Of a stretch of DNA of 64,000 nt, positions 29,742-43,166 are shown piece after piece. The stretch lies in the NCBI GenBank assembly GCA_900475325.1, contig LS483371.1:1426001-1490000 (forward strand), read 5' to 3'. The first letter of the stretch is position 1, and the number at the start of each line of letters is the position of its first letter. The position numbers and the translations under genes are program-made. This stretch comes from Paucimonas lemoignei. Its GTDB lineage: Bacteria; Pseudomonadota; Gammaproteobacteria; Pseudomonadales; Pseudomonadaceae. Below the pieces are notes generated by a model. That model saw nothing but the letters and a program-made list of their open reading frames with translations. It did no database searches and was not told the origin of the DNA.

Positions 29742-32700
29742 TCAGGGCACTTTATAGACGGGCGCCATGCCCAGCAATGACTTGAAGGCCGAGCAGCGGC
29801 AGTGCACCAGCAGGATCCGGTCGTAATGGATGCCCGCTTCAAACAGGGCATTGAACAGTTTCTCCAGGGTCGGTGGCGCCATGCCAAAGCGGTTTCTGAT
29901 GGTCAGCACGTCCATGGGTGAGGGGGGTAAGGTGCTCATGAACGGAGATCGATGGGAGTTACGCACGATGTGGCTGATATCTCGGTAGCTTTCGCCATGG
30001 GGCGTCTGGAATTTCGCCAGGGTGTAATTCTTGATCATGCCTCGTCGGGCAGTGCCTGCCAGCAGCCTCTCGGTCAATTCATAGGGATTGCTCAGCGCAG
30101 GTGCAAGCCGGTTGTCGCGGCTGTTGAGCACTGCAAACGGGACGGCTTTCCTGCTGACCACCCGGTGAAGCCTGGGGTCCACCAGCTCAAAGCCGTGGGG
30201 CGCAAAGACGCCCAATTCGGTGCCGTTGGGTATCACGGCATTTCTGCTCCAGGGCAGGGAGTAACCGTGACTGCTGACCACCAGCGTGCGTGCCTGGCGG
30301 TTTTCGGCCGTCCACAGCAGGAACTGTCGTTGCAGCTTCCAGGCCTTGACTGCAAGAGTTGCGAAGTTCGGATGGCCGGGTATGTGCCAGGCCTTGAGTG
30401 CGGTGTCGGTATGGAAAAACTGTTCAAGGCGTGTTTCCCGTTCGCGCATCGAACGATGGAGCCAGGTGCCGAAGCTTCGGGTATTGGTTGCAGCAGCCAG
30501 CGCCGGACGTACAGCCGGTTTCACCGGCCTCGCCAACTTGCCCAGGGCATGGGCGATGCGGGGCATGAGCGGCGGGAGTTGCAGCAAACCCAGTGACAGA
30601 ACGCTGAGCATGGCCTGGCGTTTTTCGTCGTGACGCGCCCCCGGCAGGTTTGCCGAGGCGATATTCAGCCCCACGATGCCCAGTTCGGTTGCCAATGCAC
30701 CGATCAGAGCAGGTGTCAGCAGCATGGACAGGGGCGCCAGCAAAAACTGCAAATGGCTGAGCTGACGCGTCCAGTAGCGCAGGGAAACCTCTTGCGAGGT
30801 GACGATGGAGTCGCCCGCATCCCAGCGCGCGTTCTGCCGGAGCATGCTGCGGATGTGGGCAAACGGTGAACCCGCAAAGCGCTGGTCGCTGCGCTCCTGG
30901 GCCAAAGCCTTGCGCGCATCCTGATTGAGCAAGACGTCGGACCAGGGGCGCAATATTGAAATTGGCTCACTCGGCGCCTGCTCTCCGGCCCAGAGTTTCA
31001 GAATGTAGGTGAGCCTCGGCTGATGGCGCATGGGCACATAGTTGAACACGGCTTCGCGCCACGTCTGGCTGCGGGCTGCGTAGCGCAAATAGCGGTTGAG
31101 GTCGTCTTCGCTGGCGAACTCGACGAACGCCTTGAGCATCCCCGCCTGATAGAGCACCCGTTGCGGCTGGTCAGGATGGCTGAGCACCAGCAGGCTTGGG
31201 CAGGACTGCGCCACGGGTCCTTCGAAAATGGAGTGCTGCAAAAAGAAGCCTGGTATCAACCACTCGACAGGCTTGCCGTCGGGGGCGTCGGTCAGCTGAT
31301 CAAGGGCCTGGACGATCAGGTCAAATCCGCTGCGTTGCACGGTGCCTTGTTTGAGGCACAACAGTGCCTGGGTCGTGAAGTGAGCCTGCAACGTCTGATC
31401 AATCGTGGTCTGGTGCAGCGCCCAGAACTCATCAATTTTGCGATGCATGAGGTCCAGGAAGTTGATTTCCCGTATCACGGTTTCGATGGCCTGCGGATCC
31501 ATCGGCAGCTCCTGACCTGCGGTCCACACCCCTTTGCCGGTGCTGTCGTAATACACGGCGGTGCGCCCGCCATGGTCGATGTAGCCGTTGGGGGAAGCGA
31601 CGCGGTAGTTGCTCACCAGGGCTTCGCTCAGGCTGATGGGGCGCTCGTCCGGCACCTGAAAGTCGACCGCGGGATGTCGCGCGTCGCCCAACGGCGTAAT
31701 CGAGTGTCCGCGTTGATAGCGGATGAACACCCGGTCGGGATCAACCGTCCAGCCGTGCTTTTCGCGCAAGGCGTTGGTCATGACGCTGGCGGCCGTGCTC
31801 AATGGCGTGGGTATGTGTTGCAGGATGCCGGGCGTTGATTGCCAGATGTCTATGGCGCCGAGCAGGGACAGGCCACGTTCAATCCTGGTGAAAGGATTGG
31901 GCTGCGGGCTGAGGCCAACCTGTGACTCGCCCGCCTGTGCGTCGAGATAGTCCAGGGAGCGTTTTTCCTCGGCGGCCGTGATGGCTGAAAATATATCGCC
32001 CTGTATCTCACTCAGGCTGGTCCGTCCGGACACGGCTTGCTGACCTCGGGTTCCGTTCAGTGCGGCAACCAGCTTTTGCGTCATGTAGCGTGGCTCAGCG
32101 CCGATGTATTCCACCGGTGTGGTTCTGCCACCCGGCAAATGGATGAAGCAATGCGAGGTGTTTTTCGAGCGCAGTTGAAAGGCATCCGGAATCAGTTGTT
32201 CGTTGATCATGAGCAGGCTCGCCACGGACCAGGTGCCGCGCACGGCCAGCTGCAGGCAAAGCCCCGAGTCTGGAAACGCCTCAAGCCCCAGCGCTTCCAG
32301 CGCCAACTGATACCCTTCGCGGCTGATTTGCCTGCGCTCGTTCTGCCTGGCCAGTTCATCGAGAAAAGACAACTTGGCCAGCGCTCGATAGGTGTCCCGA
32401 TGTTTGTCCCAGAAGCTCTCCAGCAAGGCCGGATAGTCAAAAGCCCAGCGGGCATTGACGACCAGCTCAATGGCGGCTTTGGCGGTCAGGGTTGGCGTTG
32501 ATTTATCCAGCGGCTGGTCGGCGAACGTGTTTTGCAGCAGCGCGCCCATCATCGCCCCGTCGAAGGACATCACGCCGATGTCCGTCAGGGTCATACGACG
32601 CGAGTAACGCTCATGACCCTGATCATCCACCGCAGGGTTAGTGTCGGTGCGAAAGCGAATGCTCAGGGTGTCCGGCGACAGCGCTTTGCCGGTGGTGCGT

Positions 32701-32879
32701 TTCAGGAGCTGCTTCAACTGTTCGCGAACGTAGTCGCGCAGCCGGGGCGGGTAGTCCATGTCCATCTGGCTGGCTTTGAGCAACAGTGTGGAGTGGGCGA
32801 TGAGCTTGAAACCGGGACTTTTGGTCAGCGCCTCAAGACGGTTTCGATGGGCTTCGGTGTGATGGGGGTAGTCGTTCAT
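29742..32879 (-). CDS. Large toxin-like protein (dermonecrotic-toxin/DUF6543 type) with C-terminal HG...C domain
   Basis: 1045 aa with no signal peptide. Seen: a long alpha-helical region resembling the dermonecrotic-toxin-like DUF6543 proteins common in Pseudomonas, a hydrophobic stretch (about 735-770, 'LQFLLAPLSMLLTPALIGAL') that may insert into membranes, and a distinct C-terminal domain of about 180 residues with 'TLVVSSHGYSLPW' (His871-Gly872) and 'RILLVHCRCSAF' (Cys1027, Cys1029). A hydrophobic strand before HG and another before Cys is the layout of clan-CD cysteine peptidases. It also resembles a 'putative adhesin Stv' domain I recall from similar proteins (not verified). The ATG abuts the U-tract of the terminator of the upstream gene and lacks a Shine-Dalgarno site. 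No immunity or secretion gene is adjacent. Function inferred only. Confidence 0.6.
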   Translation of the reverse strand: MNDYPHHTEAHRNRLEALTKSPGFKLIAHSTLLLKASQMDMDYPPRLRDYVREQLKQLLKRTTGKALSPDTLSIRFRTDTNPAVDDQGHERYSRRMTLTDIGVMSFDGAMMGALLQNTFADQPLDKSTPTLTAKAAIELVVNARWAFDYPALLESFWDKHRDTYRALAKLSFLDELARQNERRQISREGYQLALEALGLEAFPDSGLCLQLAVRGTWSVASLLMINEQLIPDAFQLRSKNTSHCFIHLPGGRTTPVEYIGAEPRYMTQKLVAALNGTRGQQAVSGRTSLSEIQGDIFSAITAAEEKRSLDYLDAQAGESQVGLSPQPNPFTRIERGLSLLGAIDIWQSTPGILQHIPTPLSTAASVMTNALREKHGWTVDPDRVFIRYQRGHSITPLGDARHPAVDFQVPDERPISLSEALVSNYRVASPNGYIDHGGRTAVYYDSTGKGVWTAGQELPMDPQAIETVIREINFLDLMHRKIDEFWALHQTTIDQTLQAHFTTQALLCLKQGTVQRSGFDLIVQALDQLTDAPDGKPVEWLIPGFFLQHSIFEGPVAQSCPSLLVLSHPDQPQRVLYQAGMLKAFVEFASEDDLNRYLRYAARSQTWREAVFNYVPMRHQPRLTYILKLWAGEQAPSEPISILRPWSDVLLNQDARKALAQERSDQRFAGSPFAHIRSMLRQNARWDAGDSIVTSQEVSLRYWTRQLSHLQFLLAPLSMLLTPALIGALATELGIVGLNIASANLPGARHDEKRQAMLSVLSLGLLQLPPLMPRIAHALGKLARPVKPAVRPALAAATNTRSFGTWLHRSMRERETRLEQFFHTDTALKAWHIPGHPNFATLAVKAWKLQRQFLLWTAENRQARTLVVSSHGYSLPWSRNAVIPNGTELGVFAPHGFELVDPRLHRVVSRKAVPFAVLNSRDNRLAPALSNPYELTERLLAGTARRGMIKNYTLAKFQTPHGESYRDISHIVRNSHRSPFMSTLPPSPMDVLTIRNRFGMAPPTLEKLFNALFEAGIHYDRILLVHCRCSAFKSLLGMAPVYKVP

Positions 32880-32946: not shown

Positions 32947-34761
32947 TTATCGACTTTGCAAATAAGCCCTCCAGCCGCCCAGGTGGCTGATATTTGTTGC
33001 GCCTTGCAAGCCATAGGCTTCGCAGATGAAACCGCACTCCCAGCGTCCATCGGCCAGCTGCACTTTGCCCATCCCCAACGGTGCCGGGATGCCGGTGAGG
33101 AACGAACCCAGTTCGCGGCTCGGCAACTCCCAGACTTCCACGTCGATAGCGACACCGCCTTGATCGACCCGCACCATACCGGGCCGAAACGGCGGGCCGC
33201 CCACCAAGGCGTAAAGCTGGTAATCGGCCGAACTTTGCGTGCTCTGCACAAGCGTTGCGCCACGCTGCTTGAGCTGCCAGTTCAGGGCCAGGCCATCCAG
33301 GTGGGCGCCGCAGACGACAATCCGAGCCATGTCGTGACGGGCCAGGCTGGGTGGTGTGCTCAATGTCGCGTGTTGCCCGCCAATCAGTGGCAGGTCGGTG
33401 TGACGCTGCAGGGCATCGGCAACGCTCAGCAGGTATTGATCGGTGAACGCCCGGCCAAACAGCGTCACGCCCCACGGCAGGCCGTTTTCCATGAACCCGC
33501 CAGGCACGGCGACGGCGGCGTAATCGAGCAGGTTGACGAAATTGGTGTAATAGCCGAGCTCCGAGTTGCGCAACACAGGCTCGGCTTCCAGTTCGGCATT
33601 GGTCACCGGACGGGGGATGCTGGGCGTGACCACGCAGTCCAGGCATTGCAGCGCCTTGTCGCAGATCGCCTTGAGTTGTTGCAGGCGGTATTGCGCCTGG
33701 AAGGTCTGAACCCCGGTGACGGTCGGCGCTTTGGCCAATACTGCCTGGATGACCGGCAAGACTGCTGCAGGATTGCTCTGCATCAGTTCGCCCGCGACGC
33801 TGTAGCGCTCGGCGACCCAGGGGCCGTTGTAGAGCAGGCTCGCTGCTTCGAGGAACGGTGAAAGATCAATCGTGACCGCTTCGCCGCCCAGGGCTGTCAA
33901 GCGCTCGACGGCGTCTGCGAACAGCCGTGGGCCTTGCGCACAGCCGAAGTATTCAAGGTCTTCGGCGCGAGGCACGCCAAAGCGGAACGGCCTGGGTGCG
34001 CCAAAGGCGCTGGCATCGTTCCACGATGGGTTGCTGCGGCTGTATTCGTCACGCGGGTCCAGCCTTGCGGTCAGGCTCAGCAACTGGCTGGCCTCCCGAG
34101 CGGTGGCGGTGAAGGTGGTGACGCAATCCAGGGTGCGACAGGCGGGCACGACCCCAGCGGTGGAGATCAGCCCTTTGCTGGCCTTCATGCCCACCAGGTT
34201 ATTCAGCGCAGCGGGCACGCGTCCCGAGCCAGCGGTGTCGGTGCCCAGCGAAAAGCTGCTGACCCCCAGCGCCACGGCAAGCGACGAGCCGGAGCTGGAG
34301 CCGCCGGACGGATAGTCCAGGAGCACGCTGTTGGGGCAGGCGCCAAACGGCGAGCGGCTGCCGTTCAAGCCGGTGGCGAACTGATCGAGGTTGGTCTTGC
34401 CCATGGGAATCGCCCCCAGGGCCAGCAATTGCTCGACGATGGTGGCCGATTGTTTGGGTGTGTACGAGTACGCCACGCAGGCCGCAGTGGTGGGTATCCC
34501 GGCCAGATCGATGTTGTCCTTGATGGAAAACGGGACGCCGTACAACGGCAAATCCTTGATGTCTCGGCCTTCCAGCGCGACCAGATAAGGCTCCAGCTCC
34601 GAAGGGTTCAGCAAGTAGATGAACAGGTGATACTGCGGGTTCAGGGCAACGGCCTTTTCTCGCAGGGCCAGGATCAGTTGACGCGGCGTGACGCTGCCGG
34701 ACTCATAGGCTGCACGCACCGAGTCCAGGCGTAGATCAGATAAAAGTACTTCAAGGCTCAT
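32947..34761 (-). CDS. atzF: Allophanate hydrolase
   Basis: 604 aa; hydrolyses allophanate to two ammonia and two CO2, the last step of the guanidine pathway encoded here. Seen: the amidase-signature Ser-Ser-Lys triad ('SIKDNID', Lys81; 'GGSSSGSSLAV', cis-Ser about 155; 'GTDTAGSGRVP', Ser179) and the C-terminal allophanate-hydrolase domain ('VCGAHLDGLALNWQL', 'AYGLQGATNISHLGGW'). The start at 34,761 has GGA upstream; the 22-codon longer frame runs into the end of the carboxylase gene. It lies 28 bases after the carboxylase stop and ends with a clear terminator, so it closes the operon. Confidence 0.95.
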   Translation of the reverse strand: MSLEVLLSDLRLDSVRAAYESGSVTPRQLILALREKAVALNPQYHLFIYLLNPSELEPYLVALEGRDIKDLPLYGVPFSIKDNIDLAGIPTTAACVAYSYTPKQSATIVEQLLALGAIPMGKTNLDQFATGLNGSRSPFGACPNSVLLDYPSGGSSSGSSLAVALGVSSFSLGTDTAGSGRVPAALNNLVGMKASKGLISTAGVVPACRTLDCVTTFTATAREASQLLSLTARLDPRDEYSRSNPSWNDASAFGAPRPFRFGVPRAEDLEYFGCAQGPRLFADAVERLTALGGEAVTIDLSPFLEAASLLYNGPWVAERYSVAGELMQSNPAAVLPVIQAVLAKAPTVTGVQTFQAQYRLQQLKAICDKALQCLDCVVTPSIPRPVTNAELEAEPVLRNSELGYYTNFVNLLDYAAVAVPGGFMENGLPWGVTLFGRAFTDQYLLSVADALQRHTDLPLIGGQHATLSTPPSLARHDMARIVVCGAHLDGLALNWQLKQRGATLVQSTQSSADYQLYALVGGPPFRPGMVRVDQGGVAIDVEVWELPSRELGSFLTGIPAPLGMGKVQLADGRWECGFICEAYGLQGATNISHLGGWRAYLQSR

Positions 34762-34789
34762 GGTTCGATTCCGTCGGTAAGTCAAAAAA

Positions 34790-37700
34790 TCAGTCGGCTT
34801 GCAGAACCACCACGCGCTGCCCGGCACGCACCGCCGAACCCGGTTGCACCCGGACTTCGCGCACGGTACCCGCGATGGGGGCCAGCAGCGGAATTTCCAT
34901 TTTCATCGACTCCAGAATCACCAGTGCATCACCCGCTTCCACGCGCTGGCCTGTTTCTACCTGTACTTGCCAGAGGTTACCGGCGATGTGGCTGTCGACG
35001 CTGTGTTCACCCTCGTTAAGGGGCGCTTCTTCAGTGAGCGGTGCAACTGCTTCTTCGCTTTCGAAGTTGGCCTGACCGCTGGCGATCCAGCGTTCACGCT
35101 CGGCATTGAACGCACCCTGCTGCTGGCTGCGGAACGCTGCAATGCCCTGGGCTTCACGATTGAGGAAGGCTTGATAGTCGGCCAGGTTCAGCGTGCTGTG
35201 TTCAATCTCCAGCGGGAAACGACCCAGGGGGAAATCCCGGCGGATGCGCAGCAGTTCGTCAGCACTGACCGGGTAGAAGTGAATCTGATCGAAGAAGCGC
35301 AACAGCCACGGCTTGCCATCGAACGCGGCGACCTCGCGATAGCGGTTCCACATCTGCAAGGTGCGCCCGACAAACTGATAACCGCCGGGGCCTTCCATGC
35401 CGTAGACGCACATGTAGGCGCCACCGATGCCCACCGAATTCTCGGCGGTCCAGGTGCGCGCCGGGTTGTACTTGGTGGTCACCAGACGGTGGCGCGGGTC
35501 GAGCGGGGTGGCGACCGGCGCGCCGAGGTAAACGTCACCCAGGCCCATGACCAGATAGCTGGCCTCAAAGACCGTGCGCTGCACCTCGTCGAGGTTGGGC
35601 AGGTCATTGATGCGGCGGATGAACTCCAGATTGCTCGGGCACCAGGGTGCATCCTTGCGCACCGTGGTCATGTATTTCTCGATGGCCAGCTGGCAGGCCG
35701 GGTCGTCCCAGGACAACGGCAGATGCACGATGCGCGACGGCACTTGCAAGTCCTTGGCCGCGCAGACGGCGTCCCATTCCCCGGCAACGATTTCCAGCAA
35801 TTGCGCCAGCGGCAGCTGTTCAGGCTGGTAATGAACTTGCAACGAACGTATCCCCGGCGTCAGGTCGATCACGCCGTGCAGCTGTTTGGCTTCCAGCGCC
35901 TGCATCAACGCATGCCCGCGAAAGCGCAACACCAGATCCAGCTCCGGTGCGCCGATTTCCAGCAACAGATGCGTGTCACCGGAAAGACGCGCGACCAGAC
36001 GGGTGTCGTCGGTGCCGATGTCGAGCACGATGGGTGAATTCAGCACCGGTGAAATCCGTGGGAGCGAGCTTGCTCGCGAAGGCAATTTTTCGGGCGTTGA
36101 AGATGTATCTGAAGTCCCGGCCTCTTCGCGAGCAAGCTCGCTCCCACAGGATTGCGCTGATGTTCCAGGCCCCCGTAGGAGCGCGCTCCCTACGATCAAC
36201 TGCCGTGCGGTCTGAATACTCACCGCCTCAAACATCACCTTGTCCCCGGCCTTGAGCTGGCCCAACTGCCAGAGGTCGGCCTCGATGATGGTCACCGGGC
36301 AGACAAAGCCGCCCAGGCTCGGGCCATCCGGGCCGAGGATCACGGGCATGTCACCGGTGAAGTCCACCGCACCAATCGCATAGGGGTTGTCGTGAATGTT
36401 CGACGGGTGCAGGCCTGCTTCGCCACCGTCAGCGCGCACCCATTCCGGCTTCGGCCCGATCAGGCGCACGCCGGTGCGGCTGGAGTTGAAGTGCACTTCC
36501 CAGGCCGTGGCGAAGAAGGTATGCATGTAGTGTTCAGTGAAGTATTCCGGCGCACCGTGGGGGCCATAGATCACGCGAATGTGGCGCACATCTCCCAGCT
36601 CTTCCAACTGGTCCGAGGGGATTTGCTGCCCGGCGCTGCGATCAGCCAGGGGCGCAATGTGCAGCACGTCGCCCGCGCGTAATGCCCGGCCGCCATGCCC
36701 GCCAAACTGCCCCAACGTAAAGGTGCTTTTGCTGCCCAGATAATCCGGAACATCCAGCCCGCCGCGTATGCACAGATAACTGCGCGCACCAGTACCGGCA
36801 ATCGTACCCAGCGCCAATTGCGAACCGGCTGGTACGAACACCGCGGTATTGAGGGGCTGAGACTCGCCATTGAGCGTCAGGGGAATAACCGCGCCAGTCA
36901 CCGCTACAACCGCGTCCGTATTGAAGCGCAACAGCGGCCCGCTCATGGTGATTTCCAGCGCGGCGCACCCTTCGGCATTGCCCAGTAAAAGGTTGCCCTG
37001 ACGCAGGGCGCGGCTGTCCATCGGCCCAGAGGGCGGTACGCCCACGGCCCAGTAACCCAGGCGACCGGGATAATCCTGAACGCTGGATTGCGTACCGCCG
37101 CTGAGCACTTCAAAGGTGTCTGCGCGATAGACCAGACCTTCCAGGCAACGAGTCCACGGCTGGCCGCTGGCGAAGGGCACGTCGGCGATGATCTGGCGCA
37201 GATAATCGCGATTGGTCTCGACGCCATACAGACGGGTTTCGTTCAGAGCGTTAGCCAGGCCGTCGCTGGCCAGTTGGCGATTCGGCGCCCAACTGATGAC
37301 CTTGGCGATCATCGGGTCGAAGAACGGCGGGATCTCGCAACCGGCCTCTACCCAGGTATCGATGCGCAGGCTTTTGCCATCGACGGCGGGGAAGTTCACG
37401 GCCGTAAGCAAGCCAGGGCAGGGCTGGAAATCCCGGCCCGGATCTTCGGCATACAGACGTGCCTGGATGGCGTGTCCGCTGGGTTTGAGTGCGGCCTGCA
37501 ATTGAGCCAACGGCGGCAGATCACCCGCAGCCAGTTGCACCATCCAGCTGACCAGATCCACGCCCCAGACTTGTTCAGTCACGCCATGCTCGACCTGCAA
37601 CCGCGTGTTCACTTCCAAAAAGTAAAAGCGTTGGTCGTCGCTGTCGAAGACGAACTCTACGGTCCCGGCGCTGCGGTAGTTGACCGCCTTGGCCAGCTTG

Positions 37701-38476
37701 ATCGCGGCCATGCACAGGGCTTCGCCCATGCCGTCGGGCAGGTTCGGGGCCGGGGTTTCTTCGAGGACTTTCTGGTTGCGGCGTTGCACCGAGCAATCGC
37801 GCACACCCAAAGCCAGGACTTCGCCGCGACCGTCGCCAAACACCTGCACTTCAAGATGGCGAGCACGCTGGATGTACTTTTCGATAAACACGCCAGCGTC
37901 GCTGAAGTTGTTCTGCCCCAGGCGTTTGACGGCCTCGAAGGACTCGCTCAATTCAGCTGCACTGCGGCATACCCGCATCCCGATGCCGCCACCACCGGCG
38001 GTGCTTTTGAGCATCACCGGGTAACCGATGATGTCGGCGGTGCTCAGGGCGGCTTCGATGCTGTCGAGCAGCTCGGTGCCTTCTAGCATCGGCACGCCGT
38101 GCATTTTGGCCAGCGCGCGGGCGGTGTGCTTGAGGCCGAAAACCCGCAGTTGTTCAGGCGTCGGGCCGACAAAGGCAATACCCGACTCTTCACAGGCCTG
38201 GGCAAACGCGGCGTTTTCCGACAGGAAGCCGTAACCGGGGTGGATGGCTTTTGCGCCGCTGGCTTTGGCGATGGCGAGGATCTTGTCCACCGCCAGATAA
38301 GTCCCGGCTGCGCCGCCTTCGCCCAGGCTGTGAGCTTCGTCGGCCTCCAGCAAGTGCAGGCTGGCGGCGTCGGCTTCGGAATACACCGCCACGCCCTGAA
38401 CGTGTAGGGCACGCAACGTACGCAGGATGCGGCAGGCAATCGCGCCACGGTTGGCAATCAGCAGTTTGTCGAACAT
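34790..38476 (-). CDS. Biotin-dependent guanidine/urea carboxylase with in-frame REPIN
   Basis: 1228 aa. Domains in order: biotin carboxylase (about 1-445; '[15 protein letters not shown]', '[14 protein letters not shown]'), KipA/AHS2-like carboxyltransferase half (about 460-775; '[20 protein letters not shown]'), KipI/AHS1-like half (about 820-1040; '[20 protein letters not shown]', '[15 protein letters not shown]'), and biotinyl domain (about 1155-1228; '[11 protein letters not shown]', Lys biotinylated). Known: relatives in this gene context carboxylate guanidine using ATP and bicarbonate; they were long named urea carboxylase. The guanidine-I riboswitch and DUF1989 genes upstream favour guanidine. 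Odd: residues about 777-807 are encoded by a 90-base REPIN in the linker between the two carboxyltransferase halves; the frame stays open. Whether activity is kept cannot be read from sequence. Confidence 0.93.
   Translation of the reverse strand: [1228 protein letters not shown]
36058..36147. repeat. REPIN inside the carboxylase coding sequence (GTGGGAGCGAGCTTGCTCGCGAAG family)
   Basis: Perfect inverted 24-base arms 36,058-36,081 and 36,124-36,147 with a 42-base loop. The total of 90 bases is exactly 30 codons, so the reading frame is kept. A further near-palindrome GTAGGAGCGCGCTCCCTAC lies 27 bases on (36,175-36,193), also inside the gene. The family matches the cluster at 20,540-20,927. 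Confidence 0.92.
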
Positions 38477-38595
38477 GTCTTGAACCCCGGAGGTCGATCC
38501 GCTCGACCTCGAACTGGGAAGCGGGCCGTCCCGCTATTGATGTGTCTGCACGAGGGTCGTCCGTCGTGGGGTGTTCGCTTGATTTCGCGGCGGGT

Positions 38596-38660: not shown

Positions 38661-39281
38661 TCAATCCCAGACGTGCAACTCAGCCGGCGTCGGGTTGTAG
38701 CCGTTGCACGGGTTGTTCAGCTGCGGGCAGTTGGAGATCAGTACGATCACGTCCATTTCGGCGCGCAACTCGACGTACTTGCCGGGGGCGGAGATCCCGT
38801 CTTCGAAGGTCAGCCCGCCATCGGCGGTCACCGGCACGTTCATGAAGAAATTGATGTTCGGGCTGATGTCGCCTTTACCCAGTCGACCGTCGTGAATGCA
38901 AGCGCGTAGAAAATTGTCGCGGCAGCTGTGCATGTGGCGTTTTTCCAGGGCGTAGCGCACGGTGTTGCTCTCTTGCGCGCAGGCGCCGCCGAGGGTGTCA
39001 TGGCGACCGCAGGTGTCGTCGACGATGGTCAGCATCGGCTTGCCAAGGTTGGAATACAGCACGCTGCCGGTGGTCAGGTAGACGCTGCCCTGACGGCGCA
39101 ACGTACGCTGCACGTCGTAACGCTCGCGCGGGTTGGCCAGGCTGAAGAACAACGTGTCGACGGCCTGATTGCCTTGCAGATCGAGGATGCGCAGGGTTTG
39201 CCCGGCCTTGAGTTCGGTCAGCGACGGCTCGCCTGCCGGGATGTGGGTGGTGGTTGTGGCAATGGTGGAATGCAGACTCAT
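38661..39281 (-). CDS. DUF1989 protein, carboxyguanidine deiminase subunit (formerly urea carboxylase-associated protein)
   Basis: 206 aa, DUF1989 family. Seen: the fold core '[28 protein letters not shown]', '[28 protein letters not shown]', and '[22 protein letters not shown]', with conserved Cys/His/Asp residues suitable for a metal site. Known: in P. syringae two DUF1989 proteins (CgdA and CgdB) form a heteromeric deiminase that turns carboxyguanidine into allophanate and ammonia; I cannot tell which subunit this is. GAGGAG lies eight bases before ATG 39,281. It is 11 bases after its DUF1989 partner. Confidence 0.9.
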
Positions 39282-39292
39282 GGCGGTGCTCC

Positions 39293-40018
39293 TCAGGCGA
39301 ACAGGCGGTCGGTGTTGATGAAGCCACGCTCGTTTTCCGGGCGGGATGTGCGGCAGTGCTCGGCGACGCTGGCGTCGGCTTTCATCCAGCTCAGCTTGAC
39401 CGGCTGTGGCGCGTATTCCGGGTTGGGATCCATGGGGTGTTGCAGGGCGGTGAGCACCACTAGTGTGTCCATCGGCGCGTACAGTTCGATGTAATCCCCC
39501 GCCTTGGCGTTGCTCTCTACGAAATGCAGCTTGCCTGCGTCGTCCACGTTCACCCGGCTGAACAGGTTCAAGGTCATCAGCAGGTCGGACAGGCCCAGAC
39601 CCCACTTGCCGAGTTCAACCAGCAGATTGTCGACGCCGTTGCGGAAGAAGCCATTGCGCAGTTCCTGATAACGGCCCTGGCCGTATTTTTCCGCGACTTC
39701 GTCAGCGCAGAGCACGCCGCCGAGGCTGTCGCTCCAGCCGCAGGTGTCAGCGGTAATTGCCGCCAGTACGCGGCCCATGTCCGAGTACAGGCAATGGCCG
39801 CGGGTGAGCTTGGCGGTGTGTTGGCATTTGAGGCTGTCGGGCAGGTTCAGACGCTCGGTTTTTTCACTGGCGTTGAGCATCGTCAGGCTGACGTTGGCGT
39901 TGCCGTTGAGATCGGTCAGGCGCAGCAATTCGCCGCGCTTGAGCACGAACGAGCGATGGGCGCCGCCGGGCAGCAGTTCTTCGGCGAAGACAGGGAAGAG
40001 CGTGTTGGATGCAGTCAT
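39293..40018 (-). CDS. DUF1989 protein, second carboxyguanidine deiminase subunit
   Basis: 241 aa, paralog of the next gene in the operon. Seen: '[33 protein letters not shown]', '[19 protein letters not shown]', '[21 protein letters not shown]' and '[21 protein letters not shown]'. It has a longer middle helical segment than its partner, containing '[25 protein letters not shown]', which distinguishes the two subunit types. It lies between the ABC ATPase gene (13-base gap) and the shorter DUF1989 gene. Together they are inferred to be CgdAB. Confidence 0.9.
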
Positions 40019-42757: not shown

Positions 42758-42861
42758 GTGTCCTGTCTCCCGGGCTTTTATCCCGCCGTGTAACCTCTAC
42801 TGGAGGTCGCCAACTCTCGGACCAGCCACTCGCCAGAGGCGAGCCGGAACCCTAGTCAGCT
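42758..42861 (-). promoter_or_regulatory. Guanidine-I (ykkC) riboswitch
   Basis: On the minus strand the leader contains the hallmark ykkC words in order: CTAGGGTTCCG, CTGGTCCGAGAG, and ACACGGCGGGATAAAAG followed by CCCGGGAGA. Known: this class binds guanidinium and switches on genes for its export or breakdown; the downstream ABC/DUF1989/carboxylase operon is a standard partner. After the aptamer, GACACC-ACT-GGTGTC (42,749-42,763) and a CCGCC followed by TTTCTTT could form a terminator with the aptamer's GGCGG, which ligand would disrupt. Confidence 0.95.
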
Positions 42862-43166
42862 ATTGCAAATTGTGGTGCCGCGAACCTGAGTTGACTCCTG
42901 CACACCGATTGATAAGCGAGAGTTGTGCCAACTTGCTGGAGGCGGCGGATGACGTGGCCGGGGGCGTTTTCCTGCAGCGGCAGAGGCTCCAATCACGCCA
43001 TTGACTGGTGCACAGCCGCACCGCAATAGGGCGGTAGCTCGTCAGATACTATCCGGTGGGGGGCACTTGATTGTCTTTTTAGTGTCTCATTTCACGTCCG
43101 CCAACCTTTGGCTGGACGCCGACCAGCGTCGCTGGTTTGTGCCCAATAGCGGTCCAGGAGGCCGCC

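Follow-up and report, generated by a model that had tools for sequence, protein, structure and literature searches.

How does a mobile palindromic repeat come to lie inside the reading frame of a conserved enzyme gene, and is this the result of one insertion or of a recurring process? The gene encodes a urea/guanidine carboxylase of 1228 codons (34790..38476, minus strand) in Paucimonas lemoignei; the window is the whole stretch of 64,000 nucleotides that was analyzed (contig LS483371.1, positions 1,426,001 to 1,490,000). The carboxylase passed the urea carboxylase model TIGR02712 at full length (1854.8 bits, cut-off 1303.85) and gave a full-length match to the solved chain 3va7_A. The repeat is located in an inter-domain linker, residues 750-826 (35999..36229, minus strand), between the KipA-like and KipI-like halves in the carboxyltransferase part of the protein. 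An AlphaFold model of residues 455-1115, made from 17 sequences, had a mean pLDDT of 51.2, with linker blocks at 25-33 and other parts equally low, a quality insufficient for assessing the linker.

The element at 36058..36147 (minus strand) consists of two inverted REPs and a loop, as in the REPIN definition of Bertels and Rainey. Its arms, 36058-36081 and 36124-36147, are 24 nt each, complementary at every position (100%), and separated by 42 nt. All 90 nt are free of stop codons in the carboxylase frame and encode GSELAREEAGTSDTSSTPEKLPSRASSLP, spanning residues 777 to about 807. Another palindrome, of 19 nt (36175..36193, minus strand), lies 27 nt farther on. On these points the initial annotation was confirmed: it had described a perfect 90-base REPIN with 24-base arms inside the 1228-codon gene, a multiple of three in length, lacking in-frame stops and encoding about 30 residues, with a second palindrome 27 bases on. 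The predicted RNA fold of the region has an energy of -78.8 kcal/mol, compared to -51.3 +/- 4.0 for shuffled sequences.

The window element is an ordinary member of its own genome's REPIN population. The REP of its arms is abundant in the same genome (265 exact cores). Scoring 40 of 411 candidate sites elsewhere in the genome gave 44 further full-length relatives, a lower bound, with 81-86% identity along the entire element. Seventeen other 90-nt copies had an identity of 0.823 to it and of 0.813 to one another. An open reading frame of the RAYT family is flanked on both sides by identical cores; its Y1_Tnp match (5260770-5260979) reached 28.4 bits against a cut-off of 23 and covered positions 44-119 of 121. 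The second Y1_Tnp match, at 754607-754927, had no REP core within 1.5 kb. A tandem array of REPIN matches (G000:C1:5253676-5255151 and L347) lies a few kb from the core-flanked Y1_Tnp reading frame.

We scanned 60 evenly spaced 20-kb stretches plus the window, together 1.264 Mb of the 5.92 Mb genome and 83% coding by a simple gene finder. The expectation that REPINs are normally intergenic was borne out, with 59 of 65 exact (strict-pattern) cores outside predicted genes, and the carboxylase copy was the exception to this mainly extragenic population. Six cores were inside predicted genes. Only the carboxylase pair was well inside coding sequence (coding scores 352/238 and 363/217); the other four were 29 to 106 nt past a predicted start, with preceding scores of -33 to 0.6 (negative for three, and 0.6 for the one at 29 nt, L323). 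A looser REP pattern gave 261 cores, of which 251 were intergenic and 9 in predicted open reading frames; one locus, L305, had a single imperfect core, detected with the loose pattern only. In 400 kb of another genome, G121, 119 of 128 cores were outside predicted genes, and the 9 in-gene cores all lacked a positive score on at least one side; eight of them were no more than 159 nt from the start of a reading frame and one was 34 nt from the end of one. The same repeat was not found in several unrelated genes within the 1.264 Mb of 5.92 Mb scanned. Protein-word searches restricted to the linker matched 5 of 46 candidates among proteins of 675-2149 amino acids, all with the urea carboxylase domain set and the window's own protein included. 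Among proteins of 220-700 amino acids the linker word search matched 0 of 32 candidates, at a low sensitivity that missed known orthologs and makes it weak on other proteins.

The initial annotation had called for an alignment with homologs. Across 29 loci, the window's own included, REP-like peptides of several kinds occupied the linker. We extracted 244 linkers from the best 80 of 590 contigs and from further genome loci, and dropped six with weak anchors (two same-genus paralogs and four from other families) and one partial match (L030). The final set was 238 orthologs, 210 of them distinct (76 from contigs, 134 from genomes), drawn from the top of score lists rather than randomly. Nearly all were Pseudomonas; the outliers were L028 from another family of the order, L103 from Stutzerimonas, and a few MAGs under other names. 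Of 398 genomes of the genus searched, 217 matched at E 1e-290, with about 150 rows among the matches listed.

A REP, or a recognizable part of one, was present in frame in the linker of 188 of the 210 distinct orthologs (180 by motif and 8 by eye), and repeats of several types were involved. The remaining 22 linkers were REP-free, so that an in-frame repeat in a conserved protein exists here alongside repeat-free homologs. Stop codons within the linker were found in 0 of 210 orthologs; frames were thus open in the linkers examined. Median linker length was 48 residues without a REP vs 63.5 for the main type. The stem score was 16 or higher in 127 linkers and weaker in 83, and no control window of the same 210 genes reached 16 (0 of 6425, highest 15; windows from 2.1 kb before the linker to 1.25 kb after). 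At a score of 12 or higher, the count was 150 linkers vs 19 genes for the control windows. Because no control window attained 16 and the RNA fold of the region exceeded its shuffles, chance was excluded. The initial annotation had proposed that one REPIN had inserted in a tolerant inter-domain linker. The tolerant linker stands, given that the element is in frame and open and that the linker varies across relatives; the single insertion event does not, given that sister sequences hold a different REPIN there and that 188 of 210 orthologs carry REPs of several types.

At least 7 types of repeat were distinguishable in the linkers, as single, tandem or nested elements. The commonest was S1, with GGAGC stems (104 of 210 linkers), followed by S2, with CTGGC/CCAGC stems (37), S4, CCCTCTCCC (15), S3, GGGGCTTTAGCC (11), S6, GGCGAGGGAGC (8), and S5, GTAGCCCGG (6); 5 were mixed, 2 were others and 22 had none. 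S1, S2, S3 and S7 have a GTRGGAG end in common. A GTRGGAG or GTRGGA end was present in the GGAGC stems (many variants), the CTGGC/CCAGC stems, GGGGCTTTAGCC and an ACCGG type, and absent from CCCTCTCCC-GGGAGAGGG, GTAGCCCGGATGCAATCCGGG, GGCGAGGGAGCTTGCTCCC and GGGGCGAATTC. Three tandem copies were present in L038 and, judged by peptide, five in P0009, a protein of 1361 residues. Linkers L132, L205, L014 and L070 had small frame-keeping inserts within REP arms (15 nt in L014 vs L073). The linkers of P0017, P0018 and P0021 were near-identical, with P0021 lacking one REPIN-sized stretch between two ALLQG peptides, apparently a change in copy number.

Some linkers also appeared to retain traces of earlier occupants. 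The sister sequences L031 and L032 keep a REPIN of the GTAGGAGCGCGCTTGCCCGCGA type whose start coincides within one base with the palindrome at 36175-36193 in the window. This palindrome is best read as an older GTAGGAGCGCGCTTGCCCGCGA-type REPIN that collapsed to its outer ends, and the perfect 90-nt REPIN would have arrived later, beside the relic. L023 had a collapse similar to that of the window, and in L215 an older REPIN survives as its 3' end, located behind another, different REPIN. As far as sequence comparison can tell, the window, L023 and L215 represent relics and replacement intermediates.

Among 35 distinct REPINs of this genome with exact 22-nt arms, a set taken partly from the best matches to the window element and so biased to its length, 19 had a length divisible by three. 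The readings of those 19 were stop-free in 88 of 114 cases. Taken together, these proportions indicate that the reading frame would remain open after about four of every ten insertions of this kind of element. Insertions that were not open were presumably purged. Readable left arms were in one phase in 120 of 129 cases, and two neighboring offsets from the AR motif took 56 and 34 of the 129. This uneven use of phases could mean that insertion was rarer and conversion in place more frequent, or that frames were under selection. Insertion boundaries and frames differed between ortholog groups. L237, L097, L274 and L284 had REPINs in another frame (WEPGLPAM and WEQGLPAK peptides), which points to separate insertions.

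A FastTree tree was built from the carboxylase gene minus the linker. Repeat types clustered on this flank tree yet changed often. At least 68 type changes were counted, or at least 49 with the two commonest types, S1 and S2, merged, vs at least 95 and at least 64, respectively, when labels were shuffled (50 shuffles). Most of the counted changes were among types with the common GTRGGAG end; with all of these merged, at least 41 changes were left (shuffled, at least 52), and the strictest count, which also used the 127 strong stems only, was at least 15. Presence or absence of a REP changed 11 times. L074 and L082 were retyped for the type counts; the core-match, near-pair, phase and flank comparisons rest on earlier labels or on none. 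Near-identical genes carried different repeats, for example L271 and L276 at 96.9%. For the 22 rows with a nearest neighbor more than 95% identical in the gene, 6 differed in merged family and 6 had the same exact label. In 95 elements with both arms readable there were 0.77 mismatches between an element's own arms on average vs 3.55 between species, and in 29 closest pairs both arms differed in 21, one in 3 and neither in 5. Since the arms change together, element replacement, or correction of one arm from its partner, is needed, and independent point mutation is insufficient.

The repeat in the linker was also compared to the REPs of the host. Four REP cores were counted in each of 77 genomes, chosen by linker type from 158. 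In 61 linkers with exactly one of the four cores, that core was the genome's commonest in 43, compared to a shuffled mean of 15.1; 0 of 10000 shuffles reached 43, although the shuffle ignores species relatedness. By type, the match was 14/18 for A, 13/15 for B, 12/12 for C and 4/16 for D. Of the four genomes with REP-free linkers in this set, three were without any of the four cores. The fourth, G009, had 1367 type-D cores and still a short linker without a REP, so tolerance alone does not predict occupancy.

These results fit more than one scenario. A single ancient REP insertion in the Pseudomonas ancestor could have been passed on vertically while gene conversion kept it matched to the genome's REPs, and the dominance of one phase and two offsets in the left arms, together with arms that change jointly and match the genome's REP, is what this would produce. 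The end common to S1, S2, S3 and S7 also makes conversion among these types conceivable. However, types without that end (CCCTCTCCC, GTAGCCCGG and GGCGAGGGAGC) replace it and each other, with at least 15 changes, boundaries and frames are group-specific, tandem copies occur, and the 11 presence/absence changes put REP-free linkers in several places. As the sole process, an ancient insertion is already refuted by these unrelated types, and we consider it unlikely as the general account; combined with conversion, it probably accounts for some of the turnover within S1. Alternatively, exchange of carboxylase alleles between species could move linkers, in which case the tree, built from the gene itself, would count transfers instead of insertions. 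Recombination between Pseudomonas species is common. In 12 disjoint pairs with different states (2 of them repeat vs none), however, the 150-nt flanks of the linker were as alike (0.947 and 0.942) as the whole gene (0.940), so any exchanged tract would need to have both its ends at the repeat. The type of repeat also tends to agree with the REP population of the host genome itself, and allelic exchange seems to us a poor prospect as the main cause.

Selection for the repeat is a different possibility, in which an mRNA hairpin between the domains would slow ribosomes or protect the operon mRNA and the site would be kept stocked. The window has a very strong predicted hairpin, 127 of 210 linkers have strong stems, and REP-free sites are rare (22 of 210), all of which is in line with it; for the ribosome stalling or other mRNA effect raised in the initial annotation, the evidence is limited to the predicted hairpin. 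However, repeats collapse and decay (the window relic, L023, L133 and L059), stems are weaker in 83 of 210 linkers, and REP-free relatives keep an open gene, all of which make such selection improbable. Palindromes can also be misassembled, but an artefact of annotation, assembly or palindromes is scarcely credible when the same picture, with open frames, was obtained in 210 distinct orthologs from many assemblies.

We favor, with a probability of about 0.7, a tolerant linker that has been colonized repeatedly by resident REPINs open in frame, with later modification through collapse, tandem change and replacement. Changes of length and sequence would be tolerated in this linker, between the two carboxyltransferase halves, and this would make the linker one of very few places inside a gene where a REPIN can persist. 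Tolerance is read here from sequence variation across relatives, and activity of the variant enzymes is a prediction. Resident REPINs would insert, and the survivors would be those whose length and frame keep the reading frame open. Editing in place may then expand an element to tandem copies or, by internal deletion, shrink it to a brief remnant. A newcomer, in most cases from whichever type is common in the genome at that time, would replace the old element or land in or beside it; this swap could occur by RAYT transposition, by recombination with other copies, or by both. The protein would thereby acquire a linker that keeps changing and has a high content of Ser, Arg and Ala, and the repeat a refuge inside a gene.

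A stronger version is tentative and, in our view, doubtful: a resident REP or its relic may itself be the target recognized by RAYT, or by REP-to-REP recombination, with the frame kept, so that the site would perpetuate itself as a landing pad. If so, families would swap far faster than by random insertion, and the linker would be continuously rewritten by selfish DNA. Transposition rates in enterobacteria were estimated at 3.8e-9 to 1.4e-8 (PMC8049555). Our rough estimate for the linker was about 1e-10 insertions per generation (about 1000 elements, a target of about 70 bases and 6.5 Mb). By this rough reckoning, in which the substitution rates are assumed values, random insertion would be at least an order of magnitude too slow for the changes between genes that are 95% identical. 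The shortfall hints at targeted or recombinational exchange, subject to the assumed rates and to the non-independence of the 22 rows.

Related systems have been described, and the comparisons here hold for the portions of these sources available to us. Rickettsia palindromic elements (RPEs), as told in PMC3733652, are in-frame palindromic repeats in proteins that are likely functional. The carboxylase repeat likewise lies in frame in a protein-coding gene, but RPEs are in many unrelated genes of one genome, whereas here one protein site is occupied across the genus by many repeat types, and no other gene is occupied in the portion of the genome that was scanned. It works like an RPE but is not classed as one. 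Over half of the intragenic GTAG/CGTC REPs are dimers or groups encoding 20-30 residues, and in recB of X. campestris and X. oryzae different REPs lie at about the same site (PMC3733652), similar to the different REPs at one in-gene site here. That precedent concerns two species and one gene, compared to 188 of 210 orthologs, at least 7 types and turnover on a gene tree. The REPINs of P. fluorescens SBW25 (PMC3116915) resemble the window element in having two inverted REPs and a loop, many copies, and a RAYT associated with the same REP. In SBW25, genes are overlapped by only 14 of the 1,067 most frequent 16-mers, and in contrast to our study, the available text of that account singles out no gene and does not contain the word "urea" (PMC3116915). 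Coding palindromes in mitochondria of Nematomorpha (PMC6649704) are also perfect inverted repeats in protein-coding genes, but they are mitochondrial, and a mobile repeat population is not mentioned in the part of that report available. No report of REPs in a urea or guanidine carboxylase was found in the literature searched, which had little reach into subscription journals. In-frame REPs and RPEs are thus known, and that literature gave no example of genus-wide turnover of several families at a single protein site.

The spread of REPs has been described as poorly understood (PMC8266576). The carboxylase linker offers a fixed, alignable place that is represented across the genus in occupied, empty, tandem, nested and collapsed forms. 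Its flanks give each change a relative age, so that insertion boundaries, replacement, changes in copy number and rate can be measured, and the site is a natural test site for how mobile repeats move. Our findings suggest that a stretch of a conserved enzyme can be written, and written anew, by mobile palindromes with no loss of the open reading frame, and that members of a single named protein family have linkers consisting of genome-specific repeat DNA.

The surroundings of the gene bear on the identity of the enzyme. The downstream gene (32947..34827, minus strand) encodes allophanate hydrolase (TIGR02713, 776.2 bits, cut-off 511.05), and two reading frames at 38661..40018 (minus strand) encode the urea amidolyase associated proteins UAAP2 and UAAP1 (TIGR03424 and TIGR03425, both above cut-off). 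A Guanidine-II riboswitch lies just upstream of the carboxylase (38521..38568, minus strand; RF01068, 38.9 bits, gathering 32) and a Guanidine-I riboswitch upstream of a transporter gene (42765..42866, minus strand; RF00442, 96.8 bits, gathering 63). Because both riboswitches and the UAAP1/2 genes adjoin it, the enzyme is probably a guanidine carboxylase. A 1045-codon reading frame adjoining the operon (29742-32879) had no NCBIfam match at E 0.001. The two riboswitch classes, Guanidine-II and Guanidine-I, precede genes of the same strand and pathway.
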